In this document: positions 48,053-64,000 of the stretch, piece by piece
Layout of the letters: the number at the start of each line of letters is the position of its first letter
How positions within the stretch are numbered: position 1 is the stretch's first letter
Origin: Phyllobacterium endophyticum
Lineage (GTDB): Bacteria; Pseudomonadota; Alphaproteobacteria; Rhizobiales; Rhizobiaceae
Direction: 5' to 3'
Length of the DNA stretch: 64,000 nt
Assembly (NCBI RefSeq): GCF_003010935.1
Contig: NZ_PGGN01000007.1
Span: forward strand, 62,001 to 126,000
Position numbers and translations under genes: made by a program
Notes under the pieces: generated by a model
What the model saw: the letters and a program-made list of their open reading frames with translations, nothing else
What the model was told of the DNA's origin: nothing
The model's database searches: none

Positions 48053-48057
48053 CGCAC

Positions 48058-49155
48058 TTAACTCCGCAGCGTCTTGCCGGTTTCAGGCGAGAACAGATGT
48101 GCCTGCGACAGGTCGAAACTGAATCTTACCACTTCACCAGCATCCATGGGACGTGGATTGAGCATGCGCGACACCCACTCGCGCTCGGCCATCGTTACGA
48201 AAAGCAGCGTCTCATTGCCCAGCGGTTCCGTTATCGAGACCGGCAGTTCCATCTCGTGCACGTCCGTGGCCTCACCGGAATTCAATCCGTGGCCGGTTGG
48301 ATACATGTCGTCGGGACGCAGGCCGAAAATCACCCTGTCACCCGCCGAAACCCTGCTGCGGAATTCAATCGGCAGTGGCAGGGTCTGCCCACCAGCAAAC
48401 ACCAGCTTTCCATCCGCGATAGTCGCCTCGTTCAGGTTCATGGGCGGTGAACCGATGAAACCGGCAACGAAGCGTGTCGCCGGCCGTTTGAACACTTCCT
48501 CAGGCGTGCCCACCTGCTCGATATGACCATCACGCATGATAACGATACGGTCGGACAGCGTCATCGCTTCCACCTGATCATGCGTTACATAGATCATCGT
48601 TGCCTGCACTCGCGCGTGCAAACGCTTGATTTCGGTACGCACCTGCGTGCGCAGCTTCGCATCAAGGTTTGAGAGCGGCTCGTCAAACAGGAATACGTCC
48701 GGCTTTCGTACAATTGCCCGGCCCATGGCCACGCGCTGACGCTGGCCGCCGGAGAGTTGCGACGGACGGCGGTCCATATACTTGTCGAGATCGAGAATCG
48801 CCGCAGCTTCGTTGACGCGGGTATCGATTTCGCTCTGTGCGACTTTACCGATCTTGAGCGAGAAGCCCATGTTCTCGCGCACTGTCATGTGCGGATAGAG
48901 CGCATAGGACTGGAACACCATCGATATGTTGCGCGCCCGCGGCGGCAGATCATTGACCGGCCTGCCGCCGATTTCGACGACGCCGCCGCTGATGTCTTCG
49001 AGCCCGGCGATCATGCGCAACGTCGTGGATTTTCCGCAGCCGGACGGGCCGACCAGGGCGATGAATTCGCGGTCCTTGACCTCAAGGTCGATGCCATGGA
49101 CCACATCGACATTGCCATAACTCTTGACGAGCTTTTTGAGTGTTACGGGAGCCAT
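48058..49155 (-). CDS. CUT1 ABC transporter ATPase (UgpC/MsmK type)
   Basis: A 365-residue ATPase with Walker A GPSGCGKSTT, signature LSGGQRQRVAMGRA, Walker B VFLFDEPLSNLDA and switch HDQVEAMTL. A C-terminal TOBE regulatory domain runs from about residue 235 (VIFGLRPDDM, VSITEPLGNETLLFV). It energises the two permeases encoded upstream. The ATG at 49155 is the start; 35 open codons before it lie in the leader. It is 5 bp from the downstream enolase-family gene. Confidence 0.92.
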   Translation of the reverse strand: MAPVTLKKLVKSYGNVDVVHGIDLEVKDREFIALVGPSGCGKSTTLRMIAGLEDISGGVVEIGGRPVNDLPPRARNISMVFQSYALYPHMTVRENMGFSLKIGKVAQSEIDTRVNEAAAILDLDKYMDRRPSQLSGGQRQRVAMGRAIVRKPDVFLFDEPLSNLDAKLRTQVRTEIKRLHARVQATMIYVTHDQVEAMTLSDRIVIMRDGHIEQVGTPEEVFKRPATRFVAGFIGSPPMNLNEATIADGKLVFAGGQTLPLPIEFRSRVSAGDRVIFGLRPDDMYPTGHGLNSGEATDVHEMELPVSITEPLGNETLLFVTMAEREWVSRMLNPRPMDAGEVVRFSFDLSQAHLFSPETGKTLRS

Positions 49156-49272
49156 GACAAAAGCCTTTCTCGACCATAGTGGCCGTATTCTGTTTCTCGG
49201 CTGGCGAGACAATCCACGCGGAAGGTGGCGAGGTCGATGTGGTTCATCGGACGAAGGCACCTGACAAAGTGG

Positions 49273-50139
49273 TTAACCTTTCACCGCGCCGAACGTCAGT
49301 CCGGATACGAGATGCTTCTGAATGATAAACGTTAAAGTCAGCGCCGGAATGATCATCACCACTGCGAGCGCGCACATTCCGCGCCAGTCGATGGTGAATT
49401 CCGACGTGTAGTCGAGAAGTCCTACGGGCAGCGTCTTTGAATTGACCGAGCGGGTGATCTGCGATGCCAGCGCATACTCGTTCCACGAGGTAAGAAAGGC
49501 GAAAATGCCGGCCGAGGCAATGCCGGGCCCGGCCAACGGAAATTCCACCTGCCAGAACGCCTGCCACCTCGTGCATCCGTCGATCTGGGCCGCTTCCGCC
49601 AGATCCTTTGGCACCTGCCGGAAGAACCCGTCGATAAGCCAGATCGTGAATGGCACGTTCAGCGCCACGTAGATGAGGATCATCGCGAAATGCGTATCGA
49701 TGACGCCGACGCGGGCAAAGATCATGAACAGCGGCAGCGATAATGCGATACCGGGCACAGCCCGCGTCAGCATGAAACCGAGGAACACTCCCGACTTGCC
49801 CTTGAACTTGAAGCGGGCAAAGGCGTAACCGCCTGCCATGCCGATGATCAATGCAATGATTGTCGAGGTGATCGAGATGATCAGCGAGTTGCGGAAATAT
49901 TCCCACACGGGAATGCCGCCCTGCCCTGCACCGCCGAACATCGCACGGTATGCGTCGAGCGATATGTCGCGCGGTATCCACACGGGTGGTTTCGCCATGA
50001 TTTCCACCGTGGGTCGCAGGGAACTCAAGACGATCCACAGGCCTGGCAGACATATGACGAGCATTGCGAGGAACAGGCCAACAAGGTGCAGCACTTTCAG
50101 GCCGCGACGTTTCAGACGGTGAGAACTATTATGATCCAT
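49273..50139 (-). CDS. CUT1 ABC transporter permease 2 (MalG type)
   Basis: This 288-residue permease has six predicted helices. The EAA loop is DLAEAAQIDGCTRWQAFWQVEFPLAGPG, the usual contact site for the ATPase. Its start at 50139 is 1 bp from the end of the preceding permease gene. It is followed by a 117-bp gap without an evident structure before the ATPase gene. Confidence 0.9.
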   Translation of the reverse strand: MDHNSSHRLKRRGLKVLHLVGLFLAMLVICLPGLWIVLSSLRPTVEIMAKPPVWIPRDISLDAYRAMFGGAGQGGIPVWEYFRNSLIISITSTIIALIIGMAGGYAFARFKFKGKSGVFLGFMLTRAVPGIALSLPLFMIFARVGVIDTHFAMILIYVALNVPFTIWLIDGFFRQVPKDLAEAAQIDGCTRWQAFWQVEFPLAGPGIASAGIFAFLTSWNEYALASQITRSVNSKTLPVGLLDYTSEFTIDWRGMCALAVVMIIPALTLTFIIQKHLVSGLTFGAVKG

Positions 50140-50140
50140 C

Positions 50141-51037
50141 TTACCACTCCGCTCCGATTTGCTGGCGTGCGGCCGCAAGTTTCCTGAAGAAATACACGGT
50201 GAACAGGATCGAAAGCAGGATCGCAATATAGGCCATGGCGTTTGCAAGGCCCATGCGCGCATCACTATAGGCCGTGCGTCCAACAAGCGTCCACAAGAGT
50301 TCGGTACGTTTCGCCGGTCCGCCGTCCGTCATGATCTTTACAATGTCATAGGCCCGCGCAACGTCGAGCGAACGGATAGTCATGGCGATAAAGGCAAAAG
50401 GCATCAGGTAGGGCCAGGTGACATAGCGGAATGTCTGCCATGGTGTGCAACCATCGACCCGAGCCGCTTCCACAGGCTCCTGGGGCATGGCCAGCAGTCC
50501 TGCGAGGATAAGAATGGCAAAGACGGAAGTCGACGACCACACTTCAGCGACGATGATTGAAAACAGTGCGAGATTGCCGTCGATCAGCCAGGGTATGGCG
50601 CTCGTGGTCACGCCCAGGGACTGTAGCGCGTTGTTGACGAAGCCAATATTGTCGTTGAACAGGAACTTGAACTGAAAGCCGACGAGCACGGGCGAAAACA
50701 TCATCGGAAACATCATCAACGTACGCAGGATCCGCTGGCCGCGCGTTGCCTTGTTGACCAGCATGGCAAGGCCGAGACCGAGGAACATCTCCGCATTGAG
50801 CGCAATCGTCAGGAGCACGACCGTACGCCCGAACGCCGTCCAGAATTCGTAGTTGGTCAGCACGCTGACATAGTTGCGAAAGCCGATGAAAACCCAGATC
50901 GATTCCGGCTTCGTCAGCCGAAAAGGCGTGAAGCTCGAATAGAGCGAAAACAACAGCGGCAGCACGATCACGGCGGCAAGGACGATGATCGCAGGCAGCA
51001 GCAGGAGCGTCGGCGCGGATAATTTGGGAAGTTTCAT
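50141..51037 (-). CDS. CUT1 ABC transporter permease 1 (MalF type)
   Basis: This 298-residue permease has six helices, beginning with LLLPAIIVLAAVIVLPLLF. The EAA loop is PVEAARVDGCTPWQTFRYVTWPYL. It forms the membrane channel with permease 2. It lies 173 bp after the binding-protein gene, a gap that contains a strong hairpin. Confidence 0.9.
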   Translation of the reverse strand: MKLPKLSAPTLLLLPAIIVLAAVIVLPLLFSLYSSFTPFRLTKPESIWVFIGFRNYVSVLTNYEFWTAFGRTVVLLTIALNAEMFLGLGLAMLVNKATRGQRILRTLMMFPMMFSPVLVGFQFKFLFNDNIGFVNNALQSLGVTTSAIPWLIDGNLALFSIIVAEVWSSTSVFAILILAGLLAMPQEPVEAARVDGCTPWQTFRYVTWPYLMPFAFIAMTIRSLDVARAYDIVKIMTDGGPAKRTELLWTLVGRTAYSDARMGLANAMAYIAILLSILFTVYFFRKLAAARQQIGAEW

Positions 51038-51168
51038 CTGAAGTATCGGCCTTCGGTCTCTGCGGTTGCCATCCCTTGTCCACCCGTGTGGGTTCGAGGC
51101 TGCGCAGCGCAGGGCGGGGACTTGGTCATGTGATGCGCGATGGGCAATTCCCGTTCGGGACTTGCTCC

Positions 51169-51193
51169 ACCCTCCTCCCCACGGGGGGAGGGT
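51169..51193. repeat. GC-rich hairpin after the binding-protein gene
   Basis: ACCCTCCTCCCC / GGGGGGAGGGTT lies about 18 bp past the stop of the binding-protein gene, between it and permease 1. It resembles the core of element E. It probably protects the upstream message and reduces read-through, raising binding protein over permease. Confidence 0.6.
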
Positions 51194-51210
51194 TCAGAGC
51201 GCAACAGCGT

Positions 51211-52527
51211 TTAGAGCTTGCCCGCATCCTGAAGGATGTCGGTCGCCTTCTTGGCCGCCGTATCAAGCGCTTCCTTCGACGTCTTGTCGCCGAGGATTGC
51301 CGCTTGCAGTTCCGGATAGACCGCGTTCGAAATCTCGATCCATTCGGCCAGAGGTGGAACCGGGAATGCGTTCTTGGCTTCTTCCTGAAACGCATTCAGC
51401 ACTTCGGTCTTGTAAGGATCGCTCTTGGCCTGCTCGATGTCCCATGCCCAGACCGCAGTGCGCGTCGGCAAAGGTCCTGCCTTTGCTTCGAGCTTCTGGC
51501 TGTCCTCGTTGGTCAGCCACCAGACGAGCGAAGCCGCGGCTTCCTTGTTTGCGCAAGCCTCCGTTACGGAGAAGCCATGATGACCCGACCAGCCAGTCCG
51601 CTTGCCGGATGAACCTGCGGGTGCAACCTTGACGCCAACATTGCCGGCAACTTTCGACGATTTGGGATCGTTGAAGAAACTCGCCCAGCCTGGCCAATCC
51701 AGATTGATCGCGATCGAGCCCGATGCAAAACCCTGGCCGAGATCGTCCCAGAGATAGTTGGTCGTGCCGGCGGGCACAGCTTTCGCCTTGTAGAGGTTGA
51801 CGAACCAGTCGAGTGCTTTGACGCCGGCCTCGGAGTTGAATGCGGGTTTGCCATCCTTGTCGATATATTCGCCGCCTTCGGCAATCAGCATCTCATAGAA
51901 GCGCCCGTTGATCGCCTCTTCCTTGCCAGCGAATTGCGTGCCGTAGAAGTCTGGTGCCTTGGTGAAGAAGATCGCCTGGTCGCTTACCTGCTGCCAGGTA
52001 TCCGGCGGCGTCAGGTCATAGCCATACTTTTCCTTGAAAGCCTTCTTGTTGGCCTCGTCTGCATAGATGCTCTTCTGGTAATAAAGCGCCGATACGTCGA
52101 ACTGCGCGCGCGGCAGCATGACGAGCTTGCCGTCCAGCGTCGACGACTTGATATTCGTTGGAACGAAAGCGGCAATTTCTTCCGCCGGAACCAGCTTGTT
52201 CAGATCGGTATAAATATCCGGATATTGCGGCGCGAAGGACGAGTGATTTGAACCGACGCACCAGTTCAGGCTTCCCGAAGCAATGTCGGATTTTATTTCC
52301 TTGTCGAGTTCGAAATGGTTCTTCTTCGACAGGATGTTGACCTTGGCTCCGGTCAACTTTTCCCATTCGCCAATGCGCTCGTAAAGCGGCTCGTATTGCT
52401 GCCCGCCGATTAGCTTGGCGTCGACCGTAACACCCTCGAACTTGCCCGGCAGATCAGCTGCCATGACAGTTTGAGCGCTGAAAATGGCGATGACGCCAGC
52501 TGAGACGCCGGCCAATAGAGTTTTCAT
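51211..52527 (-). CDS. CUT1 sugar-binding periplasmic protein
   Basis: A 438-residue extracellular solute-binding protein of family 1. The signal peptide ends at about residue 23 (VSAGVIAIFSAQTVMA). Typical segments are YERIGEWEKLTGAKVNIL at the N-terminus and SVTEACANKEAAASLVWWL near the middle. GGGAGGGAAACC precedes the ATG at 52527. It is the first gene of the ten-gene operon. The ligand is inferred from the downstream enzymes to be a 6-deoxy-hexose, an oligosaccharide of it, or the corresponding aldonate. Confidence 0.9.
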   Translation of the reverse strand: MKTLLAGVSAGVIAIFSAQTVMAADLPGKFEGVTVDAKLIGGQQYEPLYERIGEWEKLTGAKVNILSKKNHFELDKEIKSDIASGSLNWCVGSNHSSFAPQYPDIYTDLNKLVPAEEIAAFVPTNIKSSTLDGKLVMLPRAQFDVSALYYQKSIYADEANKKAFKEKYGYDLTPPDTWQQVSDQAIFFTKAPDFYGTQFAGKEEAINGRFYEMLIAEGGEYIDKDGKPAFNSEAGVKALDWFVNLYKAKAVPAGTTNYLWDDLGQGFASGSIAINLDWPGWASFFNDPKSSKVAGNVGVKVAPAGSSGKRTGWSGHHGFSVTEACANKEAAASLVWWLTNEDSQKLEAKAGPLPTRTAVWAWDIEQAKSDPYKTEVLNAFQEEAKNAFPVPPLAEWIEISNAVYPELQAAILGDKTSKEALDTAAKKATDILQDAGKL

Positions 52528-52584
52528 GGTTTCCCTCCCGTGATCGAGCGGCCGCTCCCCGGCTCTCGCAATTCGTGCAACACT

Positions 52585-52635
52585 CACATATGAGCGTTTC
52601 ATTCATATACAAACATTTCTGTGCTTGAGCGTCAA
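52585..52635 (-). promoter_or_regulatory. Promoter and IclR-type operator of the deoxyhexose operon
   Basis: On the minus strand TTGACG (52635-52630) and TTGTAT (52612-52607) are spaced 17 bp. The -10 overlaps ATATGA-N9-TCATAT. The + strand segment CACATATGAGCGTTTCATTC continuing to ATATAC (52585-52610) matches 22 of 26 bases of a segment in front of the IclR gene at 63.56 kb. Confidence 0.6.
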
Positions 52636-52810
52636 GCGTGGAAAGCTCGGATGTGGTGAATACTCCAGGTTGTGGTCAAGCCCCGAAGAACCCACCCTTG
52701 AAACCTGAACGGTCGAGAGAGCTATACAATTGCGGCGCGCGGCTCCGCCCCAAGCGGAAGCGCACACTTCCACCGGCAATGCGAGTCAGGGGTACTTTGC
52801 TGAATTGGTT

Positions 52811-53839
52811 CTAGGAAAGGGCGGCGCGAAGAAGCCGGATAGCGTCGTCGAACGCGTCTGACGCTGCGCCGATACAACCAGCGACGTTGATAAAAGGATG
52901 AACAAGGCCGGAGTAACGTTTGAGCACGACAGGAACGCCGGCTTTTTCCAGCAGGCGAGCGTATTCTTCGCCTTCGTCCCTTAGCGGATCAAAACCCGCG
53001 ACCAGAATAGCTGCGGGAGCCACGCCTTTCACGTCGCCGAGAATGGGGGAAGCGCGCGGGTCAAGCGCGTCGGAAGGCGCATTGAGATAGAGGTCCGTAT
53101 ACCATTCCATCTTTGGCTTCTCGAGAAAAAAGCCCAAGGGAAACAATTCGTAGGAGCGCCGTTGGCTGCTCATGTCGAGCCACGGAACCCATAGTAATTG
53201 GTAGCATGGCGGGTATTCATCGTCGCGGGTCTGCTGGGCAACCACCGCCGCAAGATTGCCGCCCGCGCTGTCGCCGCCGACAGCAACGCGCCGTGGATCA
53301 ATATCGAGCTCTTTGGCTCGATTGACGATCTCGCGAAATGCTGCGACGCCATCATTGACACCCGCCGGGAACCGATGTTCCGGCGCCAGTCTGTAGTCGA
53401 CTGCGATGACGATGCATTCGGCTTTCAGGGCAAGCCGCCGACAGGGAAGGTCATGCGATTGAAGCGAGCCGGCGACGTGTCCTCCACCATGATAAAAGAC
53501 CAGAACCGGAGCCGGAACCGTGAGTTGCTTCGGCCGGTAGGCACGAGCTTCTATCGGACCATTCGGCCCGGAGAATTGCAGCGGGCTGGAGATCACCTCG
53601 GCACTTGCCGGATGTGAAAGCCACCCTCCCTGTTCATCTGCTTCGCGCCGGGATTCTTCAACACTTGGCAACGCACCTTCCTTGGCACCAACCAGCTTGA
53701 TGACATATTGCACCTGAAGATCGAGCGTCTGGCCATCTATGACAACAGGCGGCCCAGCGACAAGGCGCATCAACCATTTCGGCGAACGTGAAATCGTTCG
53801 AACGGCTATCTTCTGAATGCGACTGCTAAAGGTTTCCAC
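52811..53839 (-). CDS. alpha/beta hydrolase, HSL-type esterase
   Basis: This 342-residue hydrolase of the hormone-sensitive-lipase group has the oxyanion motif FYHGGGHVAGS, the nucleophile elbow GGDSAGGNLAA, the aspartate in VAGFDPLRDEG and the histidine in YSGLVHPFINV. It hydrolyses short- to medium-chain esters. There is no signal peptide. The GTG at 53839 is taken as start (AGGA eight bases upstream); a TTG two codons earlier is possible. It is divergent from the ceramidase gene across a 374-bp AT-rich gap and may belong to that lipid-degradation block. Confidence 0.87.
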   Translation of the reverse strand: METFSSRIQKIAVRTISRSPKWLMRLVAGPPVVIDGQTLDLQVQYVIKLVGAKEGALPSVEESRREADEQGGWLSHPASAEVISSPLQFSGPNGPIEARAYRPKQLTVPAPVLVFYHGGGHVAGSLQSHDLPCRRLALKAECIVIAVDYRLAPEHRFPAGVNDGVAAFREIVNRAKELDIDPRRVAVGGDSAGGNLAAVVAQQTRDDEYPPCYQLLWVPWLDMSSQRRSYELFPLGFFLEKPKMEWYTDLYLNAPSDALDPRASPILGDVKGVAPAAILVAGFDPLRDEGEEYARLLEKAGVPVVLKRYSGLVHPFINVAGCIGAASDAFDDAIRLLRAALS

Positions 53840-54076
53840 GCTCAATATCCTGGCTCAACGACTGTGTCGTAGCATAAGTATTTGTAATAAAACGATGATC
53901 TGAAACATGAGTAGTCAAAACAATGGTGTTGCAATAAACGGTTGCACCTCCAGTCCATGCTTTGGATATCGCGACGCCGGGATGGGCACACCGGCCGCGC
54001 CACCTGTTGCATCTTGAAGAAGGCTTCTTCGTTTCATTGCAATACTCGAATGTCCAAGATTTCCCGGCTGTTTCAC

Positions 54077-54114
54077 AGGTTAAAAACGGCCAGCAGAAGG
54101 TTAATTTCGGCCAA
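54077..54114. promoter_or_regulatory. Tandem AraC-type operator in front of the ceramidase gene
   Basis: AGGTTA-AAAA-CGGCCAG (54077-54093) and AGGTTA-ATTT-CGGCCAA (54098-54114) are direct repeats exactly 21 bp apart. The same pair occurs at 56.8 and 62.3 kb. The remaining part of the 374-bp gap (53840-54213) is AT-rich. It has a TTGACA at 54151 but no gene I can support. Confidence 0.75.
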
Positions 54115-54213
54115 CAGTACAAAAACCATTTAGAAGCTCCCATGCCGGGATTGACACATTGAAACGGATCAAACTTAGCTGGCGAATTCTCATGTATTTT
54201 AAGAGGAGGAGCT

Positions 54214-56547
54214 ATGTTGAGATTAATTTACAAATTCACCAAACGCGGCATTGCCGCCATTTTATTATCTGTCCTGTTCATGCAAAGTCATGCCCTTGCG
54301 GCTGATGAAGCAGTTTTGATCCACCGTGATGCCGAGCAACAGCCATATCGTTTTGGCATAGGCAAGGCGGATATCACGGGTCCCGCCGCTGAAAACGGCA
54401 TGCTTGGCTTCGGCGGAGAACAAAGCACCGCCGGCATCCACATGCGGCAATGGGCCCGCGCCTTCATTATCCAGGGGCAAGGCGCCAACGCCGGGAGTCC
54501 GTTGGTCTATGTCAATACCGACCTTCAATCCGTGTCCATGTCGGTGCGCCAGGGCGTCTTGGCCAAGCTCAAGGTAAAATATCGGGCCACCGACGGCACA
54601 GCGCTTTATGGCGAGAACAACGTCATGCTGGCGGCAACGCATACCCATTCCGCCCCCGGCGGTTTTTCCCATTATGCAATATTAAACATTTTAACTCGCG
54701 GTTTCCAGAAACAGACTTACGATGCCATTGTCGATGGTATCGTGAGAGCTGTAGATCACGCGCATGAAAACATGAGAGAAGGCCGGCTCTATTACGGCAC
54801 TGGCAAGCTTTATGGCGCCAGCGCAAATCGCGCACTCATACCATTCGGCCTGAACAGTCTCAGTCAGGAGGATAAAGACTATTACAAGAATGGCGTCGAT
54901 CCGCAGATGACCGTTCTGAAATTCGTGGACTCTGAAAAGAAGATAAGGGGTGTCATCACCTGGTTTGCCGTACACACCACTTCCGTCGGCCCGACCAGTC
55001 ATTTGATCTCGCCGGACAATAAGGGTTATGCCCAATATTATTGGGAGCGTTTCGAAAGCAGGAGGGATCCCGGTCTCTATGCGGATGATTTCGTCGCCGC
55101 GTTCGCACAAAGCAACGCTGGCGACATTTCACCAAATCTTGCCATACCGCTGCTCGACGACAAGGGCAAGGAAGTGCCGCGCAGCAAGAAAGAGCTGATC
55201 GCGTTCAATACTTGTCCCGGGGTTACCAACCCCGCCGCATGGAAAATGCCTCATCCAAATCCCGCTTGTCAATTCGAGAATGCCAGAAGGAATGGCATGC
55301 TGCAGTTTCAGACGGCCCTGAACATTGTCATGGGCAGAGAGACCGCCGGCGAAAAGGAACATCCGCTGGAAGAAGTTCGCGGCGCACTGGAAAGCCGCTT
55401 CCGCTATGTGGATTTTCCCGCTTTGCGCATAGCGAAAACCGATTCGGACGAGATACCGGTAAAGCCGGAGGCAAAGGCCGCCTTATGCGAGGCCGTACTG
55501 GGCGCATCGTTTAGAAGGGGAAGCCCTGAAGATAACCCGCCAACGACCCTTCCGGAGTGGTTACTCAGGGGTCTAGGGGAAAAACTGGACTTCTTCTTCG
55601 GCGGCTCTCCCCCTGCTGGGTTGAAAAGATGCCATGATACGAAAGAATTGTGGCTCAATACCGGAGGGAAGAAACCCTATCCCTGGACGGCCAATATCGT
55701 GCCGGTTCAATTATTCCAGATCGGGCAGATGGCCGTGCTTGGCGGTCCGGGAGAGTATACCGTGACGTCCGCTTTGAAAATTCGCCGGCAGGTCGCGGAG
55801 GTTTTCAAGAATAATCCCAACGCCAGACATGACATCAAGCATATTGTACTCAATGGCTATGCCAATGATTATATCGGCTATATCACAACCAGGAGAGAAT
55901 ACTCGAAAGACCAGTACGAAGCCGGGCATACGATTTTTGGTCCGGGTGAAAACCGCGCCTTCATCGAGCTTTTCGCTGGCCTCGCAACCGATTTGAGCAA
56001 GGGCGAGAAAAGCGTCAGTACGGGGACACCTCCGGATTTGTCAGCCAAGCAACTGAACTTTCAGACCGGCGTGGTGTTTGATTCAATATACATAGATCCA
56101 ACGTTTGATCCGTCAAAGATTAGGTTCAGTTTGATTCCTTTCCTGATCGATACCGGGATAAGAGTAATAACCCACGATTTCGGCTACGTATTGACGCAGC
56201 CGAAGGCCACGTACAAGCGAGGGAATATTGTCAAGACATCGTTCGTTACCGGCCATCCCAAGAACAATCTGCGGACCGAAGGAACATTCCTGCAAGTTCT
56301 TTTCATTCCAAATGGCAAGACGGAAAAGGACGCGCAGATCGTTGCCACGGATGATGACTTCAACACCAAATACGCATGGGAGCGCGTGGGTATTATTGCG
56401 GGTTCGCAAGCGACCACTACGTGGGAGATACCCATGGATGCGCAGCCCGGTAGATATTTTATCAGGCACTACGGCGATTGGAAGGAACTCGGTTCAGGCC
56501 TGATTCGGGAACTTAAAGGGACGACCAATACCTTCAAAGTAGAATAG
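54214..56547 (+). CDS. secreted neutral ceramidase
   Basis: This 777-residue enzyme has a signal peptide ending at about residue 29 (AILLSVLFMQSHALA), so it acts outside the cytoplasm. It hydrolyses the amide bond of ceramide to sphingosine and a fatty acid. Zinc-site histidines lie in ATHTHSAPGGFSHY (H143, H145) and WFAVHTTS (H254). The nucleophile serine is S306 in NAGDISPN. The last 150 residues form the immunoglobulin-like C-terminal domain. GAGGAGGAGCT precedes the ATG. Base composition is visibly more AT-rich than its neighbours, suggesting transfer. Neutral ceramidases are uncommon in rhizobial relatives. Confidence 0.93.
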   Translation: MLRLIYKFTKRGIAAILLSVLFMQSHALAADEAVLIHRDAEQQPYRFGIGKADITGPAAENGMLGFGGEQSTAGIHMRQWARAFIIQGQGANAGSPLVYVNTDLQSVSMSVRQGVLAKLKVKYRATDGTALYGENNVMLAATHTHSAPGGFSHYAILNILTRGFQKQTYDAIVDGIVRAVDHAHENMREGRLYYGTGKLYGASANRALIPFGLNSLSQEDKDYYKNGVDPQMTVLKFVDSEKKIRGVITWFAVHTTSVGPTSHLISPDNKGYAQYYWERFESRRDPGLYADDFVAAFAQSNAGDISPNLAIPLLDDKGKEVPRSKKELIAFNTCPGVTNPAAWKMPHPNPACQFENARRNGMLQFQTALNIVMGRETAGEKEHPLEEVRGALESRFRYVDFPALRIAKTDSDEIPVKPEAKAALCEAVLGASFRRGSPEDNPPTTLPEWLLRGLGEKLDFFFGGSPPAGLKRCHDTKELWLNTGGKKPYPWTANIVPVQLFQIGQMAVLGGPGEYTVTSALKIRRQVAEVFKNNPNARHDIKHIVLNGYANDYIGYITTRREYSKDQYEAGHTIFGPGENRAFIELFAGLATDLSKGEKSVSTGTPPDLSAKQLNFQTGVVFDSIYIDPTFDPSKIRFSLIPFLIDTGIRVITHDFGYVLTQPKATYKRGNIVKTSFVTGHPKNNLRTEGTFLQVLFIPNGKTEKDAQIVATDDDFNTKYAWERVGIIAGSQATTTWEIPMDAQPGRYFIRHYGDWKELGSGLIRELKGTTNTFKVE

Positions 56548-56554
56548 TCTCGGG

Positions 56555-56587
56555 AAATGGCCATCCGGGCTAACGGGTGGCCATTTT
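56555..56587 (+). terminator. Terminator of the ceramidase gene
   Basis: AAATGGCCATCC / GGGTGGCCATTT with TTT following, eight bases after the stop. The ceramidase gene is therefore probably its own transcript. Confidence 0.75.
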
Positions 56588-56793
56588 GATCTGCTTGCGA
56601 CCCGGCCTGGTGCTTTTTCAAACGATCGGTTTGGGGAGGAAGTTTACGCTTGGCTAAAAGCAGTTTATTCTAAAGCACCAGAGTTATCAGTATTATCGAG
56701 AAAAAAGTATACTATACTTATGATTGCAAACCGCTCCTCCAAACACCCCGCCTCTCCTCGGTCAACTCGGATGCGCCGCAATTTTTTGCTTGC

Positions 56794-56831
56794 TTGGCCG
56801 CATTTAACCTTTGTTTGGCCGAAGATAACCT
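56794..56831. promoter_or_regulatory. Tandem AraC-type operator in front of the MFS/oxidase/lyase operon
   Basis: TTGGCCG-CATT-TAACCT (56794-56810) and TTGGCCG-AAGA-TAACCT (56815-56831) are both perfect to AGGTTA-N4-CGGCCAA read on the minus strand, 21 bp apart. The surrounding 440-bp gap (56548-56987) holds a terminator at its start and an AT-rich stretch near 56690 with a GTATACTATAC palindrome, but no gene. Confidence 0.75.
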
Positions 56832-57002
56832 GTGAATTTTTGAGAAGTTGCAGAAGATAGCCCAGGAAATCTCAACGGAGCAGCAGATGCTGGATGGATG
56901 TTCCGTTGAGTTGATCTGACACCGAAGGGATAACGGCGCGAAACAGATTCCGGACAGTCGGGGTCCGCTACCGGCCGTAAACAGCTAGTGAGTGAAGCAA
57001 GT

Positions 57003-58193
57003 ATGGCTCTACAAAAGGCACACACCGACTGGCTGACGGGAAACCCCACGAAAGTCCAACAATGGGCCGCCCTTTGGATCGGGTCGGCAGGCATGCAAAT
57101 CTTTGGCCTGCAGCCGATCCTTCTCGGGGCGCTATACGCCGAGAAACGGGTGAACTTCGATGAACTCGCACTGATAGCAACCGCCGAACTCATCATGGTG
57201 GCACTCGGTTCTGTCATCGCGGGCTTTTTGTTTCCGACGACACACCTGCGCGCCAGATCTGCCTTGCTGCTCGTCCTTCTTGGCGCCTTGAACTATGCGG
57301 TCATTCTTGCGGCGGCGCCGGGCGAGCTTTTGCTGGTCAGGTCTCTTGCTGGACTTGTCGAGGGAGCGATGGTCGCAATCTCGGTCGAACTGATCGCCCG
57401 CTCTTGTCGTCCTGAACGGCTCGGCGGCATGTTCATTGGCCTGCAAACTTTTGCCCAGTGCATTCTCGCAGCGCTGATCGCAGTTTTTGTCGTTCCCGAG
57501 TTCGGATCGAATGGCGGATTTCTCGTGCTTGCCGCCGTGTGCGTCCTTTCGCTCGCGATCGCTCCCCTCGTTCCGGCCGAATATGGCAAGCTCATCCGGC
57601 CCGTGGCCGGCAAAGAGGGAATATACACACTCAAATCAGCCTTGGCACTTCTCGCCATCTTCACATTTTTTCTTTTCATCGGGGCGATCTGGGCTTTCCT
57701 CGAACCGCTCGGCGTAGGCAGCGGCATAGATGTCCAGACGATAGGCCTCCTGGTTTCGGCCAGCCTGGCGGTTCAGGTTTCGGGTGCGATATGTGCCACT
57801 TGGCTGGAAAGATCCATCGACTACCGGATTAGCATTGTCGCATGCACATTGTTGGCGATCGCCGCCTGTCTCGCGCTCGCAACCGATCCGGGTCTGACAA
57901 CGTTCAGCGCAGCCGCGCTGTCTATTGCATTCATCTGGATGTTCATCACGCCCTACCAGATCGGTCTGACGATCGCCGCCGATCCCTCGCGCAGCACCGC
58001 CCTGCTTTTGCCGGCGGCGCAGCTTCTTGGGGCTGCCCTTGGACCAATTGCGGCCTCACTCCTGATCGTCGGTGATGATGCCAGCCTCGTTCCATGGTTT
58101 GCTGTCGGCGCCCTCCTCTCCAGCCTCACGCTTTTAATGCTCCTTATCGTTTATTCTCGCGGTTCGGCCATAACAGAAGGAAAACTGTCATGA
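57003..58193 (+). CDS. MFS transporter of the sphingoid-base operon
   Basis: A 396-residue major-facilitator protein with twelve hydrophobic segments. The typical inter-helix regions are present but weak: helix 1 begins around WIGSAGMQIFGLQPILLGAL, and the helix 4-5 region is LVRSLAGLVEGAMVAISVELIARS. The start is ATG 57003; a GTG at 56988 is in frame. It is translationally coupled to the FAD oxidase (ATGA), so its substrate should be the same compound, perhaps sphingosine, a breakdown product such as an amino alcohol, or a fatty acid. The substrate cannot be read from sequence. Confidence 0.82.
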   Translation: MALQKAHTDWLTGNPTKVQQWAALWIGSAGMQIFGLQPILLGALYAEKRVNFDELALIATAELIMVALGSVIAGFLFPTTHLRARSALLLVLLGALNYAVILAAAPGELLLVRSLAGLVEGAMVAISVELIARSCRPERLGGMFIGLQTFAQCILAALIAVFVVPEFGSNGGFLVLAAVCVLSLAIAPLVPAEYGKLIRPVAGKEGIYTLKSALALLAIFTFFLFIGAIWAFLEPLGVGSGIDVQTIGLLVSASLAVQVSGAICATWLERSIDYRISIVACTLLAIAACLALATDPGLTTFSAAALSIAFIWMFITPYQIGLTIAADPSRSTALLLPAAQLLGAALGPIAASLLIVGDDASLVPWFAVGALLSSLTLLMLLIVYSRGSAITEGKLS

Positions 58194-59485
58194 ATGTAGC
58201 CTTGCCGCGCGAACATTGGCAAAACTGGTCCGGCTACGTAAGCGCCAGGCCCTTGTCGCTTCGCCAGCCAACCGAACTTGAGCAGCTTGGCGATCTGATC
58301 AAGTCGTCACCGGGACCTGTGCGGTTTGTCGGCACGGGCCATTCATTCACGCCGCTCGTTCAAAGCCAGGGCACCATCCTTTCCCTTGACCATTTCGATG
58401 CGCTGGTTTCCCACGATCCGGCTGCGCTTCAGTCACGCATAGGTGCAGGCATCGAGATCGGAGCGCTTACGAGGAAGCTGCATCGCATTGGTCAGGCGCT
58501 GCCTAATATGGGGGATATCGACAAGCAGACGTTTGGTGGAGCGCTCGCAACTTCAACGCATGGTTCGGGCATAGGTCTCGGCGCCTATCCCACGCAATTG
58601 CGTGCCATGCAGATCGTTGATGGCAGGGGCGTCGTTCGAGAATTCAACAGCGGCGACCATTTCGATGAAATGGCGGCGATGGGGGCGTCGCTTGGCGTTT
58701 TTGGCGGCGTAACCGAGGTAACTATCCAGAATATCCTGCCTTATCGCCTGCACCGGCATCGTTGGGCTCAGTGCATCAAAGAGGTCCTTGACCAATTCGA
58801 AAGCATGATGACCGCGCACAGATCGTCGGAGTTTTACTACATACCCTTCTCCGGACAAGCCATATTCCTTTCGAGCGACATTACAGACGCGCCCATATCC
58901 ACTCGCCCCCCCCAGAAGGACGATGACGGGGTGGTTACACTGCGCAGATTGCGCACGTTCCTGCTTCGCTTCCCTTGGCTTCGTGCCAGATTGATCGGAT
59001 CCGCCATCAGCCGTCTTGCCGGGGAAGATTATGTGGGTGAGTGGCTCGATGTCTATGCCTCTGAACGCAACGTGAAGTTCAACGAGATGGAATATCACGT
59101 GCCTTTCGAGGAAGGCGCCGCAACTGTCCGGAAGATAATCTCCTTGCTCGAGAACGACTTTCCCCACGTCTATTTCCCGCTCGAGGTACGCGTCGTTGCG
59201 CCGGACGAAATCTGGCTCAGTCCGTTTTACCAGCGTGCCAGCTGCTCCATAGCCATACATCACGATGCCGCCGAAGATCCTCAGCCATTCTTCAGAGCCG
59301 CAGAGAAAATCTTCCTTGCTCACGGCGGAAGGCCGCATTGGGGAAAAATGCACAATCTGAAGGCGAAGGAACTCAGTACGCTCTATCCCCGCTGGGCGGA
59401 TGCCATGGCGGTGCGCCGCGACATGGACCCGGACAATCGTTTCGTAACTCCCTATATTGCAGGCCTCCTGGGAATGGAACTTTGA
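58190..59485 (+). CDS. FAD-dependent alcohol oxidase, ALO/gulonolactone oxidase type
   Basis: This 431-residue VAO-fold flavoprotein has an N-terminal FAD domain with FVGTGHSFTPL (H51 in the position of the covalent flavin histidine) and GGALATSTHGSGIG. The C-terminal ALO-type domain ends with HWGKMH (383-388). Relatives oxidise a primary or lactol hydroxyl of sugars and alditols. Between a ceramidase and a lyase that acts on beta-hydroxy-amino compounds, it is a good candidate to oxidise the C-1 hydroxyl of a sphingoid base. That is inference. The P. aeruginosa sphingosine regulon also contains an oxidoreductase (SphC). AGAAGGAAAACTGTC precedes the ATG. Confidence 0.85.
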   Translation: MNVALPREHWQNWSGYVSARPLSLRQPTELEQLGDLIKSSPGPVRFVGTGHSFTPLVQSQGTILSLDHFDALVSHDPAALQSRIGAGIEIGALTRKLHRIGQALPNMGDIDKQTFGGALATSTHGSGIGLGAYPTQLRAMQIVDGRGVVREFNSGDHFDEMAAMGASLGVFGGVTEVTIQNILPYRLHRHRWAQCIKEVLDQFESMMTAHRSSEFYYIPFSGQAIFLSSDITDAPISTRPPQKDDDGVVTLRRLRTFLLRFPWLRARLIGSAISRLAGEDYVGEWLDVYASERNVKFNEMEYHVPFEEGAATVRKIISLLENDFPHVYFPLEVRVVAPDEIWLSPFYQRASCSIAIHHDAAEDPQPFFRAAEKIFLAHGGRPHWGKMHNLKAKELSTLYPRWADAMAVRRDMDPDNRFVTPYIAGLLGMEL

Positions 59486-60651
59486 ACACCGATACCTACT
59501 TTGCTGCACTTTCGAGCGCGCTTGATCTTGCGGGGATGCATAGGCCAAGCCTTGTCCTCGACCTTGATCGCCTTGACGGCAATATCAGCGTCGTCAAGGA
59601 ATGCCTGGCGCCCAATCTGGCGCTGCGGCTGGTCGACAAGTCCCTGCCAAGCCTCCCCTTGCTGAAGCACCTCGCCAATGCCTGTGGCACGGACCGCATC
59701 ATGACGTTTCATCTGCCGGTTACGGCAGCCGTGCTTGCGGCGATGCCTGCCGCAACAGTTCTGCTCGGCAAGCCCATGCCAGGTGCGGCCGCCCGTCAGG
59801 CACTGTCAACAGGCGTTCTGAGCCGGATCGACAACCCGTTGGCGCGAATAACCTGGCTCGTCGATACGGATGAAAGATTGTCAGCCTATGGCGAACTCGC
59901 CGAGCAACTCGGGCAAGATTTCGCCTTCTGTTTCGAAGTGGATGTCGGTCTGCACCGCGGCGGCTACCCCGACGCGCCCGCCTTGAGCCGAGCTTTGGAG
60001 CAGCTCAAGAGATACCCCCGGCTGAAATGCCGGGGAATCATGGCCTATGAGGCGCAGATCAACCGTATCCCGGGACTTCTAGGAGGCCCCAAGAAAGCCT
60101 TGGCGAAGACACGAACGCTGTTGGGAGGTTTCCTTGCATGTCTCGGGCAGGATCAGCGCTCCATACTCAATATCGGCGGCAGTTCAACTGCTCTTCTCTA
60201 TGATCCCGACATTGAGGCAAACGACGTCTCCTTAGGGTCTGCATTCCTGCTGCCGAGCGATTTCGATGTCCCCAGTCTGGCGCGGCTAAAGCCTCCCCTC
60301 TTCATCGCGGCTCCGGTGTTGAAGGTGGTCGATCCGATCCTGCCCGGCCTGGATAAGCGGACATGGATCATGCAGATGCTGGGCCTGGCGCCAAAGCGGG
60401 GTTGCTATCTCTATGGCGGCAAGTGGATGGCCGAACCTGTGCATCCGGACGGCATGAAGACTGACAAGATGTTTGGACTGTCCTCAAACCAGCAATTCAT
60501 GGCGCTACCAGCGGGGTCCACGCTAAAGCCGGACGATTTTGCGTTTCTGCGACCCACGCAGAGCGAATCGGTGCTGCAACAATTCGGCTCGCTGGTCATC
60601 TACAGCAAGGGAACGATCACCGCCGAGTGGGAAACGCTTGGTCCCGCATGA
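59482..60651 (+). CDS. fold-III PLP enzyme, D-threonine-aldolase-like
   Basis: This 389-residue protein has an alanine-racemase-type N-terminal barrel. PSLVLDLDRLDGNI leads to LRLVDKSLPSLPLLKHLA, where the lysine should bind PLP. FCFEVDVGLHRGGYP and LNIGGSSTALLY follow. Relatives (D-threonine aldolase, D-serine dehydratase) cleave or dehydrate beta-hydroxy-alpha-amino acids. Their C-terminal metal ligands (His in EEHG, His/Cys in PNHxC) appear here as SSNQQ and PTQSES, so the metal site seems lost. The start is TTG 59482, overlapping the previous stop. A protein of this kind belongs to the Pseudomonas sphBCD operon. Confidence 0.82.
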   Translation: MNTDTYFAALSSALDLAGMHRPSLVLDLDRLDGNISVVKECLAPNLALRLVDKSLPSLPLLKHLANACGTDRIMTFHLPVTAAVLAAMPAATVLLGKPMPGAAARQALSTGVLSRIDNPLARITWLVDTDERLSAYGELAEQLGQDFAFCFEVDVGLHRGGYPDAPALSRALEQLKRYPRLKCRGIMAYEAQINRIPGLLGGPKKALAKTRTLLGGFLACLGQDQRSILNIGGSSTALLYDPDIEANDVSLGSAFLLPSDFDVPSLARLKPPLFIAAPVLKVVDPILPGLDKRTWIMQMLGLAPKRGCYLYGGKWMAEPVHPDGMKTDKMFGLSSNQQFMALPAGSTLKPDDFAFLRPTQSESVLQQFGSLVIYSKGTITAEWETLGPA

Positions 60652-60743
60652 GCAGGCTTCGGCTACCAGCCGGCTGGATCATGCTCCAGCCCCTCGCGTC
60701 TGCCAGGAACACGGCCAGTAGTGGCGAATTTGCGCCCGGGCCA

Positions 60744-62174
60744 TCAGCGAGCGAATAACTTCACCATGGTGTTCGCCAACCGGCCATAGGGCGGCTTGAA
60801 CTTGTCTGTCAACGGCGCTCGCGCCTGGAAGAGAACAGGCATTGCCTTGCTGAAGGTCACAAAGCCTTCACGGGCGTGGTAGTGACCCATGCCGCTTGCC
60901 CCGACACCGCCAAATGGCAGGTTATTGCAGGCAACGTGCAGCAGTGTATCGTTCACGCAAACGCCGCCCGCAACGACATTCCCGAGCATTTTCTCGACTT
61001 CGCGCTTGTCATCGCTAAAGCAATAGAAAGAAAGCGGACGCGGTTTCCCGAGAATATAGGCGATTGCTTCATCCGGCGTACTGTATGTCTTGACCACCAG
61101 TATCGGTCCGAAAATCTCCTCCTGCATGATCCGGCAATCTTCGCCGGGGTCAATGACCAGCGTCGGCTCCAGAAGGCGTTCGCTCGTTGCCTTTGCCTGA
61201 TCGGTAAATCCGACGAGCGTGAGGACCTCGACGCCTTTCCCGCGGGCTTCATCGATGAGCGCGCGCAGGCGCCTGTACTGGCCTTCGTTCACAATGTGAG
61301 TATAGTCGGGGTTCGCATCTATCTGGGCATAGCGTGCGGCCACTTCAGCGCGGATCGCCTCGACGAACTCGCTTTTTCTGGCAAGCGGAACGAGCGCGTA
61401 GTCGGGCGCGATACATGTTTGCCCGGCGTTGAAAAGCTTGCCCGAAACTATCCGCGAAACCGCTTTTCCGAAACGCGCTGCCTCGCCGACATACGCAGGA
61501 GATTTTCCGCCAAGTTCCAAAGTAACGGGAGTAAGGTTGGGTGCGGCCGCAGCCATGACCTTCTTGCCGACCTCCGTGGAGCCGGTAAACAGCAAATGAT
61601 CGAAAGGCAGGCCCGCAAACGCCCTGCCTGTCTCCGCATCGCCCAATGCCACCGCCACTCTGTCATCCGGAAACACGTCGGCGAGGAGCGCCCGCAGGAA
61701 CTCGCTCGTCTTTGGGGTATGCTCCGACGGCTTGAGATAGACGTGATTGCCCGCGGCGATGGCCGTGGCAATCGGTATCAGGGCCAGGCTGACCGGATAG
61801 TTCCAGGGAGCAATGATCCCGATGACGCCGAGCGGAACGTATCGGACCTGCGCCTTCGCCGGCCACATACGCCAACCGGCCGAACGATGATCTGTTTTCA
61901 TCCAGGACTTCAGATGCGCCAGCATGTGGTCGATCTCGTTGAACACGCTCATCCCGTCGCCAAGCATGCTCTCATGGCTTGAACGATGCCCGAAATCGGC
62001 GCTGATCGCTTGGACCATCAGGTCGAGGCGCTCTTTCAAGGCGGACCGCAGACGTTTGAGATCATCGCGACGCTGGTCATGATCAGGCCTGCGCTCGATC
62101 CAGGCCGTGCGTAGCCGTGCCAGGGTTGCCTCAAGCTCGTTTGCTTCCGATTCGACAGTCATCCTGATCGTCAC
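60744..62174 (-). CDS. aldehyde dehydrogenase (coniferyl/fatty aldehyde type)
   Basis: This 476-residue NAD(P)-dependent aldehyde dehydrogenase has the catalytic glutamate in TLELGGKSPAY, the catalytic cysteine in NAGQTCIAPDY, and the NAD loop FTGSTEVGKKVM. The C-terminal NLPFGGVGASGMGHYHAREGF is typical of the coniferyl-aldehyde/ALDH3-like group, which often uses long-chain aldehydes. The GTG at 62174 is preferred (GGAGGAGAACAGA in front) over the ATG at 62162. In this block it would oxidise the fatty aldehyde released from the sphingoid base. It is divergent from the AraC gene and shares its operator region. Confidence 0.87.
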   Translation of the reverse strand: MTIRMTVESEANELEATLARLRTAWIERRPDHDQRRDDLKRLRSALKERLDLMVQAISADFGHRSSHESMLGDGMSVFNEIDHMLAHLKSWMKTDHRSAGWRMWPAKAQVRYVPLGVIGIIAPWNYPVSLALIPIATAIAAGNHVYLKPSEHTPKTSEFLRALLADVFPDDRVAVALGDAETGRAFAGLPFDHLLFTGSTEVGKKVMAAAAPNLTPVTLELGGKSPAYVGEAARFGKAVSRIVSGKLFNAGQTCIAPDYALVPLARKSEFVEAIRAEVAARYAQIDANPDYTHIVNEGQYRRLRALIDEARGKGVEVLTLVGFTDQAKATSERLLEPTLVIDPGEDCRIMQEEIFGPILVVKTYSTPDEAIAYILGKPRPLSFYCFSDDKREVEKMLGNVVAGGVCVNDTLLHVACNNLPFGGVGASGMGHYHAREGFVTFSKAMPVLFQARAPLTDKFKPPYGRLANTMVKLFAR

Positions 62175-62255
62175 TCTGTTCTCCTCCGCAAACCCGCTTC
62201 GCTGGCGTTCGATATGCCGGAACCCCATGATTGCCTGTTTGATGCGCGCCTTCCA

Positions 62256-62293
62256 AGGTTCCGCACGGCCACATGGGGGTGAATAACGGTCAA
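62256..62293. promoter_or_regulatory. Tandem AraC-type operator between the ALDH and AraC genes
   Basis: AGGTTC-CGCA-CGGCCAC (62256-62272, 11 of 13 consensus bases) and GGGTGA-ATAA-CGGTCAA (62277-62293, 10 of 13), again exactly 21 bp apart. It can serve either divergent gene. Confidence 0.65.
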
Positions 62294-62369
62294 CGAGCGC
62301 TCTAAGCGCTTTATATTGCGCTCAAACGTGCAATATTGATAGCGACATGGTTCCATATCGGAACCCGGA

Positions 62370-63416
62370 ATGCGGAACACTTGCATGCATTATTCCAGCG
62401 AAAAGATCCATTCGTCCGCGGAGTTGCGGGCGTTGCTCGCTTTTGCCCTGGAAAACCAGATTACCGCAGAAGCCATACTTTCCAACACTGGCCTTGAACA
62501 ACAGGAACTCGCCAAGCCGGGCACATTGATTTCTATTTCACAGATGTTCACGGCCATCCAGAATGCGCTTTCCAGTTCGAACGATCCGCACCTTGGACTG
62601 AAGCTTGGTCTGAAGATGCAGATCACCGCTTATGGAATGTTTGGCTATGCTCTTGTGAGCAGCACGACGGTGCGAGCCGCCTGTCATTTTGCCGAAAAGT
62701 ACCAGGCTTTGACAATGCCTATGAGCACCCAGAAATTTAGGGAAACGAAGACCCATGGCATATGGTCGGTGGATCCCGATGTCGATGGCTCGTCAGATCC
62801 GCGCGTGTATAAGTTCAAGGTCGAACATGTGCTGGGCACTATTCTTTCATTTGCGAAAGATATCGTGGACCCGTCCGTCAAGCCTGCCGCGATCCGGTTG
62901 CGTTATCCAAAACCGCGCGATACTTCATTCTATGACGATATTTTCGACTGTGAAATCCAGTATGAGCAACCCGTAAATGAACTTCTCGTCCATCTGGATT
63001 TGCTGAATGCGATACCACGTCGTGCAGAAGAGATGACATTTTCGACGGTGCGCCAACTTTGCGATGAGATAGTCGGCCGTATGAATCAGTCGACGGGTTT
63101 GACCGGGAGGCTTCGACAGATTTTTATCGAAAGTGCCGGTTCTTTCCCTCCAATCAATGAGGCGTGCGGCCAATTGGGTGTCAGTGCCCGCACGTTGCGG
63201 CGCAAGCTGAGCGAGGAAGGAAGTTCATACCAGGCACTGCTGGATGAAACCCGGCTGTCGATCGCGAAGAAATATCTCAGGGACACTGAACTGACCATCG
63301 ACGAGATCGCCCACCGGCTCAACTATAGCGACGCGTCGAACTTCAGGCACGCCTTCCGAAGGTGGACGAGTATTGCGCCCACCGATTATCGGAATGGAGC
63401 CCTGCAACCCGATTGA
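62370..63416 (+). CDS. AraC-family regulator, probable SphR-like sphingoid sensor
   Basis: A 348-residue regulator. The N-terminal two thirds form an Arabinose_bd/OruR-type ligand domain (FTAIQNALSSSNDPHLGLKLG, AYGMFGYALVSSTTVRAACHF). The C-terminal double HTH includes NEACGQLGVSARTLRRKL and LTIDEIAHRLNYSDASNFRHAFRRW. SphR of Pseudomonas, which binds sphingosine, has the same layout. The start is ATG 62370 or ATG 62385; the second has GGAA seven bases upstream. It is divergent from the aldehyde dehydrogenase. Its likely sites are the 21-bp-spaced repeats found at three promoters in this block. Confidence 0.85.
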   Translation: MRNTCMHYSSEKIHSSAELRALLAFALENQITAEAILSNTGLEQQELAKPGTLISISQMFTAIQNALSSSNDPHLGLKLGLKMQITAYGMFGYALVSSTTVRAACHFAEKYQALTMPMSTQKFRETKTHGIWSVDPDVDGSSDPRVYKFKVEHVLGTILSFAKDIVDPSVKPAAIRLRYPKPRDTSFYDDIFDCEIQYEQPVNELLVHLDLLNAIPRRAEEMTFSTVRQLCDEIVGRMNQSTGLTGRLRQIFIESAGSFPPINEACGQLGVSARTLRRKLSEEGSSYQALLDETRLSIAKKYLRDTELTIDEIAHRLNYSDASNFRHAFRRWTSIAPTDYRNGALQPD

Positions 63417-63559
63417 GCTGGGTAGACCACAGCATTGCCGTTTCAGAATTGACGATAGTGTTTCTGCTCGCCGCAGCAGAACTTGCGATCTGGTCATCCT
63501 GTTAGGTTGATGTTCCAACAGCTCCAATCCGCCGGCGCAGGCGCTTGGCAAGCTATTCT

Positions 63560-63654
63560 CACATATAAGATATTCATTCATATACGAATCTACCGGTGCT
63601 TGACCGTCGCACGTCGAAATTGCATCGTATCGGCAACGTCTTCGTATATGAATG
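63560..63654. promoter_or_regulatory. Promoter and operators of the IclR gene
   Basis: CACATATAAGATATTCATTC continuing to ATATAC (63560-63585) is followed by CATTCATATACGAA (63575-63588) and its exact inverted copy TTCGTATATGAATG (63641-63654). TTGACC at 63600 could be a -35. The first segment matches the promoter of the sugar operon at 52.6 kb. The stretch 63417-63559 shows nothing recognisable. Confidence 0.6.
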
Positions 63655-63675
63655 GGGGCTAGGGGAGACTTGAAC

Positions 63676-64000
63676 ATGGTAGAGGACGACGACAGCGATC
63701 GTTATCGCGCGCCTGCGCTTGACAAGGGTTTGGATATACTCGAGCTGCTTTCCGGCATCGATGGAGGTCTCACGCAAGCGGAAATCGCCAAGTTTCTCGG
63801 CCGCAGTCCCAATGAATTCTATCGCATGCTGGATCGCCTTGTCCGCCGCGGATACGTTACCCGGCTTGAGGGTGACCGCTATTCCCTGACGCTGAAATTG
63901 TTCGGTCTTGCCCAGTTGCATGCCCCTGTCCGCCGTCTTGCTTCCTATGCGACACCGCTGATGCGTGAACTCGCGGTAATATCGAAACAGGCCAACCAGC
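63676..64000 (+). CDS. IclR-family regulator (N-terminal part)
   Basis: The first 108 residues of a regulator that runs out of the window. The IclR winged helix is complete: PALDKGLDILELLSGIDGG, then LTQAEIAKFLGRSPNEFYRML and RRGYVTRLEGDRYSLTLKLF. The ligand-binding domain begins at the right edge. The ATG at 63676 follows GGGGAGACTTGAAC. Shared operator sequences suggest it controls itself and the deoxyhexose operon that starts at 52.5 kb. Confidence 0.87.
   Translation, partial: MVEDDDSDRYRAPALDKGLDILELLSGIDGGLTQAEIAKFLGRSPNEFYRMLDRLVRRGYVTRLEGDRYSLTLKLFGLAQLHAPVRRLASYATPLMRELAVISKQANQ

Follow-up and report, generated by a model that had tools for sequence, protein, structure and literature searches.

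A gene cluster at positions 52811–63416 of the 64,000-nucleotide stretch of Phyllobacterium endophyticum DNA analyzed here (the window; host genome 5.5 Mb) appears to encode a variant of the SphR/SphBCD system for sphingoid bases that operates in the cytoplasm, a reading that we hold with modest confidence. The variant differs from the known system in its compartment, its probable electron acceptor and its transport, while the core pair of enzymes, a flavin adenine dinucleotide (FAD)-dependent oxidase and a pyridoxal phosphate (PLP)-dependent lyase, and the chemistry proposed for them are already known. With SphR/SphA/SphBCD/CerN of Pseudomonas aeruginosa the cluster shares an ALO-type oxidase gene adjacent to a gene for an Ala_racemase_N-type PLP enzyme, a ceramidase, an AraC-family regulator and operators in which TGNCC...CC occurs twice as a direct repeat. 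In contrast to SphBCD, which has a cytochrome and an oxidase exported by the twin-arginine translocation (Tat) system, we found no cytochrome in the cluster and no Tat-like signal on either enzyme; instead there is a permease of the major facilitator superfamily (MFS), a Gly at the oxygen-gatekeeper position of the oxidase, an aldehyde dehydrogenase (ALDH) in the cluster and a linked ceramidase. Domain and profile matches confirmed that every gene named in the initial annotation is present and correctly placed; what these genes catalyze is inferred from sequence throughout.

The core of the cluster is a trio on the forward strand, composed of the MFS permease (56988–58193; PF07690, 46 bits only; no solved relative at E 0.01), which is the proposed sphingoid-base importer, an ALO-family FAD oxidase (58190–59485; TIGR01679, 534.5 bits) and a fold-III PLP enzyme related to SphD (59482–60651; PF01168, E 3.4e-12). 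For the oxidase, the most likely start is 58190, where an ATGA overlaps it with the MFS stop, rather than the first ATG of the open reading frame (58094); for the PLP gene, it is a TTG (59482) that overlaps the oxidase stop. Given these overlaps, the three genes look like one coupled operon. The ceramidase gene (54214–56547, forward strand) is separated from them by 440 bp and is followed at its 3' side by a terminator-like hairpin, identified by eye. Beyond the trio, a class-3/fatty-aldehyde-type ALDH gene (60744–62228, reverse strand; PF00171), which probably starts near 62162 based on comparison by eye with congeners, is divergent from the gene for the AraC-family, SphR-like regulator (62370–63416, forward strand; PF12625 and HTH_18). 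Solved relatives of the ALDH include the fatty aldehyde dehydrogenase 4qgk (E 2.6e-83). Because of the gap and the hairpin behind the ceramidase gene, the self-contained cluster of the initial description is to be understood as three transcription units, the ceramidase being separate, and not as one operon.

Assignment of these genes to a sphingoid-base module, as first proposed, is upheld by the SphR-like operator layout, the sole full-length SphR relative in the genome, the co-occurrence of ceramidase with the lyase and a FadL-type channel in five congeners. The published SphR site consists of TGNCCSNNRNNSNCC repeated twice, 6–8 bp apart. Three predicted sites in the cluster share this layout, except for an A at position 12: one in the esterase/ceramidase intergenic region (54078–54113, reverse strand; TGGCCG(N4)TAACC, a 6-bp spacer and a second half-site), one direct repeat ~158 bp 5' of the MFS start (56795–56830, forward strand) and another in the ALDH/AraC intergenic region (62257–62292, reverse strand), which has two mismatches to the published SphR consensus and is more distant than the others from the pattern defined by the first two sites. 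Allowing up to three mismatches, TGGCCG(N4)TAACC repeated at 21 bp occurred at two places genome-wide, both in the cluster, compared to none for the reversed pattern in the genome and none in 100 shuffles of the window; because the pattern was derived from 54078–54113 and 56795–56830 themselves, these figures show the mutual likeness of the two sites and their absence elsewhere, and are no blind test. A matrix built from nine congener sites gave only the three cluster sites more than 14 bits in 64 kb (36.6 for 54078–54113, the top score, 32.0 for 56795–56830 and 30.9 for 62257–62292), a result that is not fully independent since the nine sites were chosen with a similar but more permissive pattern. 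The same matrix ranked a site 5' of the cytochrome gene first in two of six pseudomonad loci, and none of the loci L066, L129, L126, L092, L076, L079 and L080 showed a conspicuous SphR-like site (L and G numbers denote loci and genomes of the comparison). In L045, two operator sites differing by one base (14416–14451 and 18150–18185) lie 3.7 kb apart; the second is near an acyltransferase gene, and the intervening gene, GMC-like by its similarity to the GMC gene of L046, reads as two overlapping open reading frames.

Using a pseudomonad SphR as query, the AraC protein of the window was the only full-length match in the genome (87 bits; next match, 25). Relative to a pseudomonad locus (L164, not P. 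aeruginosa itself), the oxidase and lyase are ~38% and the regulator ~24% identical. At the sequence level, the window has a SphR-type regulator and predicted operators, with low regulator identity and an imperfect consensus fit. Conservation within the genus is higher. In five congeners that carry these genes together, the neighboring regulator is 61–64% and the neighboring ALDH 74–76% identical to that of the window; four of the loci have the order FadL-MFS-oxidase-lyase plus ALDH and AraC, and in the fifth the genes are arranged differently. Operators flank the genes on each side in four of these five loci, with one site in the fifth. The congeners' FadL-type operator was not found in the genome of the window, which encodes two FadL relatives elsewhere.

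The ceramidase matched PF04734 (E 5.3e-138, 461 bits) and PF17048 (139 bits) over its full length, as well as the neutral ceramidase 2zws (E 3.2e-173), which is the Pseudomonas enzyme with zinc ligands H97, H204, E411 and Y448; the aligned residues, H143, H254, E514 and Y556, are conserved. The NCBIfam model NF041649 scored 382 bits, under its 1200-bit cut-off. The enzyme is probably secreted, based on an N-terminal signal-like stretch recognized by eye. Across 385 sampled genomes of the class, the lyase was present in 15 (own genome included) and a full-length ceramidase in four, all of which were among the 15 (p 1.5e-6; p 3.9e-5 without the window's own genome), although three of the four belong to one family, which limits the independence of the association and weakens it as support. 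Eight genomes with partial ceramidase matches, one of which (G175) has the lyase, were left out of this count; with any ceramidase match included, five of 12 genomes had the lyase. Among 149 relatives, the lyase was found in 10 genomes, again counting the window's own. At the phylum level, the ceramidase was matched at both model ends in five of 398 genomes, including three with the lyase (G000, G533 and G695). Without the window's own genome, the lyase was present in 22 of 397 genomes and in two of four with ceramidase (p 0.016, after dropping two partial matches, G646 and G659, both lacking the lyase).

To place the cluster among its relatives, we compared 80 named loci (the best 80 of at least 547), in which genes were traced by tblastn, together with 42 further stretches, yielding 107 loci with both oxidase and lyase, 101 of them distinct. 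Ceramidase adjoins the pair in L066 and L129, that is, in only two of 101 distinct loci within stretches of at most 20 kb. TetR genes were found at six of nine loci of the window's clade in which one to three neighbors were scanned (L060, L062, L069, L073, L081 and L172), where a different protein, TetR, probably senses the same substrate or a related one. The initial annotation had expected its proposal to fail if the trio usually occurred apart from ceramidase or AraC partners and with another substrate. The pair did usually lack a neighboring ceramidase, but no other substrate came to light, and the genome-level co-occurrence of ceramidase and lyase points in the opposite direction.

Scarcity of ceramidase near the pair fits an alternative in which the trio has some other substrate, an amino alcohol or a beta-hydroxy amino compound (such as N-acyl amino alcohols, amino sugars or alditol-like compounds), with the ceramidase as a chance neighbor, as do the xylitol oxidase 2vfr being the nearest solved relative of the oxidase (E 1.5e-41) and the other amide hydrolases at related loci, from PF01425 (L050, with relatives in L060–L062) and PF01804 (L052). 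We consider this alternative improbable because of the shared SphR-like operator, which is also found in the ceramidase/esterase region, the FadL channel in congeners and the ceramidase co-occurrence. With the xylitol/alditol oxidase and the aldonolactone oxidoreductases the window oxidase shares a sequence family and, presumably, FAD-dependent alcohol oxidation; 2vfr differs in having Ala at the gatekeeper although it is an oxidase.

The proposed placement of both enzymes in the cytoplasm, beside a permease, agrees with our pattern check, which found no Tat-like signal on the oxidase (start at 58190) or the PLP enzyme; SphC, by comparison, is Tat-exported (PMC6085387). Three cytochrome queries against window positions 52000–64000 gave no match at E 1e-3, no counterpart of the sphB cytochrome c gene was found upstream of the oxidase, and the only two CxxCH words in this region fall within the MFS and PLP genes but out of frame. 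In the 36 distinct loci that make up the window's closest clade (lyase identity of at least 45%), no cytochrome was detected; 27 of them encode an MFS protein related to that of the window, compared to none of the 65 others. Six loci that are pseudomonad by their layout (L162–L165, L169 and L170) combine a cytochrome with Tat-like patterns on oxidase and lyase and a nearby AraC gene. At L164 (9192–10466) and in many further loci of the Tat type, the N-terminus of the PLP enzyme also looks Tat-like (pattern only), in which case this enzyme would be periplasmic; a term search of the text available for the Tat study (PMC6085387) returned no mention of SphD.

In GalDH, a cytochrome c enzyme, Ala113 controls oxygen use, and the oxygen-using ALO and GULO enzymes have Gly at this position (PMC11099136). 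We located the gatekeeper by comparing the wild-type and A113G GalDH chains, which identified the motif PNM[G/A]DID and ruled out an alternative position at the FGG/LAG motif. At the aligned position, the window oxidase, which would be expected to use oxygen directly, has Gly (Gly108) and L164 has Ala. Among 38 distinct cytochrome-linked loci the residue is Pro in 32, Ala in four, Ser in two and Gly in none (L125, a gap row at this position, was dropped), compared to Gly in 55, Pro in five, Ser in one and Ala in one of 62 distinct loci without a cytochrome link. A further test for CxxCH 5' of the oxidase matched the cytochrome labels except for L125. Some Gly oxidases have a Tat-like pattern (for example, L026 and L134), so Gly is no strict marker of the cytoplasm. 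On a quick unrooted tree built without a mixture model, Gly changes five times and the cytochrome label six times; of four supported independent pairs, a mean of 1.7 agreed with expectation, 0 ran against it and 2.3 showed no difference. Being unrooted, the tree does not give the order of the cytoplasmic and the periplasmic cytochrome-linked states. If upheld with better sampling, the gatekeeper–cytochrome pattern would be the naturally occurring equivalent of the Ala/Gly switch of the vitamin C enzymes (PMC11099136).

In the route that we envisage, the ceramidase would cleave ceramide outside the cell and the free base would pass the inner membrane via the MFS protein, while the AraC protein would bind the base and turn on all three units. 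The FAD enzyme, with oxygen directly, would oxidize the alcohol at C-1 to an aldehyde, and perhaps further to the acid; the lyase would then split C2–C3, releasing glycine (or aminoacetaldehyde) together with a fatty aldehyde, and the fatty-aldehyde-type dehydrogenase would convert the latter to a fatty acid for beta-oxidation. Whether the cluster encodes this complete oxygen-dependent, phosphate-free cytoplasmic pathway, with a D-type lyase bearing Gln-x-Glu that cuts a D-configured amino compound, is a more tentative proposal, which we regard as possible but short of probable. Like the sphingosine-1-phosphate lyase route, it would involve PLP-dependent C2–C3 cleavage to a fatty aldehyde; that route has a kinase and a fold-I lyase, neither of which is among the cluster genes. 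The initial annotation considered a phosphate-free route of this kind not to have been worked out. The same two steps, however, were proposed for SphC and SphD by LaBauve and Wargo in 2014 (PMC3900636), so the route is a published hypothesis and not a new one. Okino and Ito (2016) reported induction of the same genes by sphingomyelin (PMC5150637). Among the papers listed by our searches, drawn largely from open-access journal literature, nothing on this route came up beyond the Pseudomonas papers. Since both enzymes are apparently unexported and lack a cytochrome partner, they could perhaps be produced in soluble form and assayed, which would open the chemistry to direct testing.

Solved relatives of the lyase include 6qkb (E 2.8e-16) and 4v15 (E 5.8e-12), and a full-length profile alignment with eleven relatives of mixed D-threonine aldolase and D-serine dehydratase type covered 338 columns with a probability of 98.9. 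The lyase shares with the D-threonine aldolase/BhcC/D-serine dehydratase family fold III, the PLP lysine and the carboxylate-binding arginine, judged by sequence only: Lys53, Arg159 and Glu362 are each conserved in all 41 aligned members and Gln360 in 40. PF14031 was not matched. Stereochemistry offers a possible rationale for this fold. By Cahn–Ingold–Prelog reasoning, oxidation of (2S,3R)-sphinganine would yield a (2R,3R), D-configured beta-hydroxy-alpha-amino compound because the oxidized C-1 outranks C-3, which would explain a D-threonine-aldolase fold in place of an L-type enzyme.

It is also conceivable that the lyase acts straight on the unoxidized base, releasing ethanolamine and a fatty aldehyde and leaving the oxidase to serve another step; the retro-aldol cut of a phosphorylated amino alcohol by sphingosine-1-phosphate lyase is known chemistry and provides a precedent. 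Arg159, present in all 41 lyases, aligns with AxDTA Arg157, which holds the substrate carboxylate in a modeled complex (PMC4401734). Together with the coupling of the oxidase gene to the lyase gene, this leads us to give a direct cut very little credence.

Work on the Pseudomonas genes bears on what the module is for. DiGianivittorio et al. (2025) found that sphBC is needed for normal growth with sphingosine and is protective, and that sphingosine falls in wild-type cultures and accumulates without sphBC, whereas sphD is dispensable; the authors list the mechanism of SphC/SphB as an open question, with the product not identified and the role of SphD unresolved (PMC11893366). These results favor a role of the same module in detoxification, in which the oxidase alone would inactivate toxic bases and the lyase would be accessory or act on a side product. 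The TetR genes beside several relatives, the near-total absence of ceramidase nearby and an odd residue in the window lyase (Gln192) fit this role as well. The ALDH, permease and ceramidase fit catabolism, and the wide retention of the oxidase–lyase pair also speaks against detoxification: the two adjoin in 13 of 14 other class relatives, with no oxidase nearby in the fourteenth (L014/L030). The latter objection is weakened by 13 of the 80 named loci, in Thalassolituus, Oleispira and others, with a lyase and no detectable ALO gene in the stretch examined (L083, L085–L089, L093, L095, L099, L101 and L103–L105), where another oxidase may serve. On balance, we regard detoxification as rather unlikely.

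Several further points weigh against a cytoplasmic catabolic variant, in addition to the dispensability of sphD. The published SphR consensus alone was not significant in the window (seven matches compared to 4.0 expected), and the operator of the ceramidase region faces the esterase, with no second one facing the ceramidase found. No ceramidase was found in the five congeners carrying the trio, AraC and ALDH, and two phylum-level ceramidase genomes (G590 and G540) lack the lyase. The gatekeeper pattern amounts to ~5 changes and four well-supported pairs, too few for significance and confounded by kinship, and Pro at this position also occurs in VAO-family oxidases. In the lyase, Gln360-x-Glu362 occupies the His-x-Asp metal-ligand positions of D-threonine aldolase (His-x-Asp/Cys in the wider family; His347 and Asp349 in AxDTA, PMC4401734), and Gln192 replaces a His found in the other 40 of 41 aligned members. 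At this last position the window lyase may be altered or a base may be misread. While the oxidized base fits a D-type enzyme at C-2, its C-3 epimer is the disfavored one, since AxDTA prefers (2R,3S) over (2R,3R) (PMC4401734).

Outside the core genes, an HSL-family esterase (52811–53845, reverse strand; PF07859, E 7.7e-70) may belong to the SphR-like regulon, as suggested by the orientation of the operator at 54078–54113. Further leftward (46940–52602), an enolase-superfamily enzyme, an ABC ATPase, two permeases and a binding protein, named by eye, form what looks like a sugar-type uptake cluster, apparently unrelated to the sphingoid-base genes. Elsewhere, a second form of the oxidase–lyase pair lies near a PF01425 amidase-signature enzyme, possibly a different N-deacylating partner, in L050/L061 (Phyllobacterium sp. 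OV277), L060 and L062, with 61–63% identity between genera. Lastly, a PF01804 penicillin-amidase-type acylase is encoded downstream of oxidase and lyase in L052 (11512–14010; the same as L067, Pseudohoeflea suaedae).

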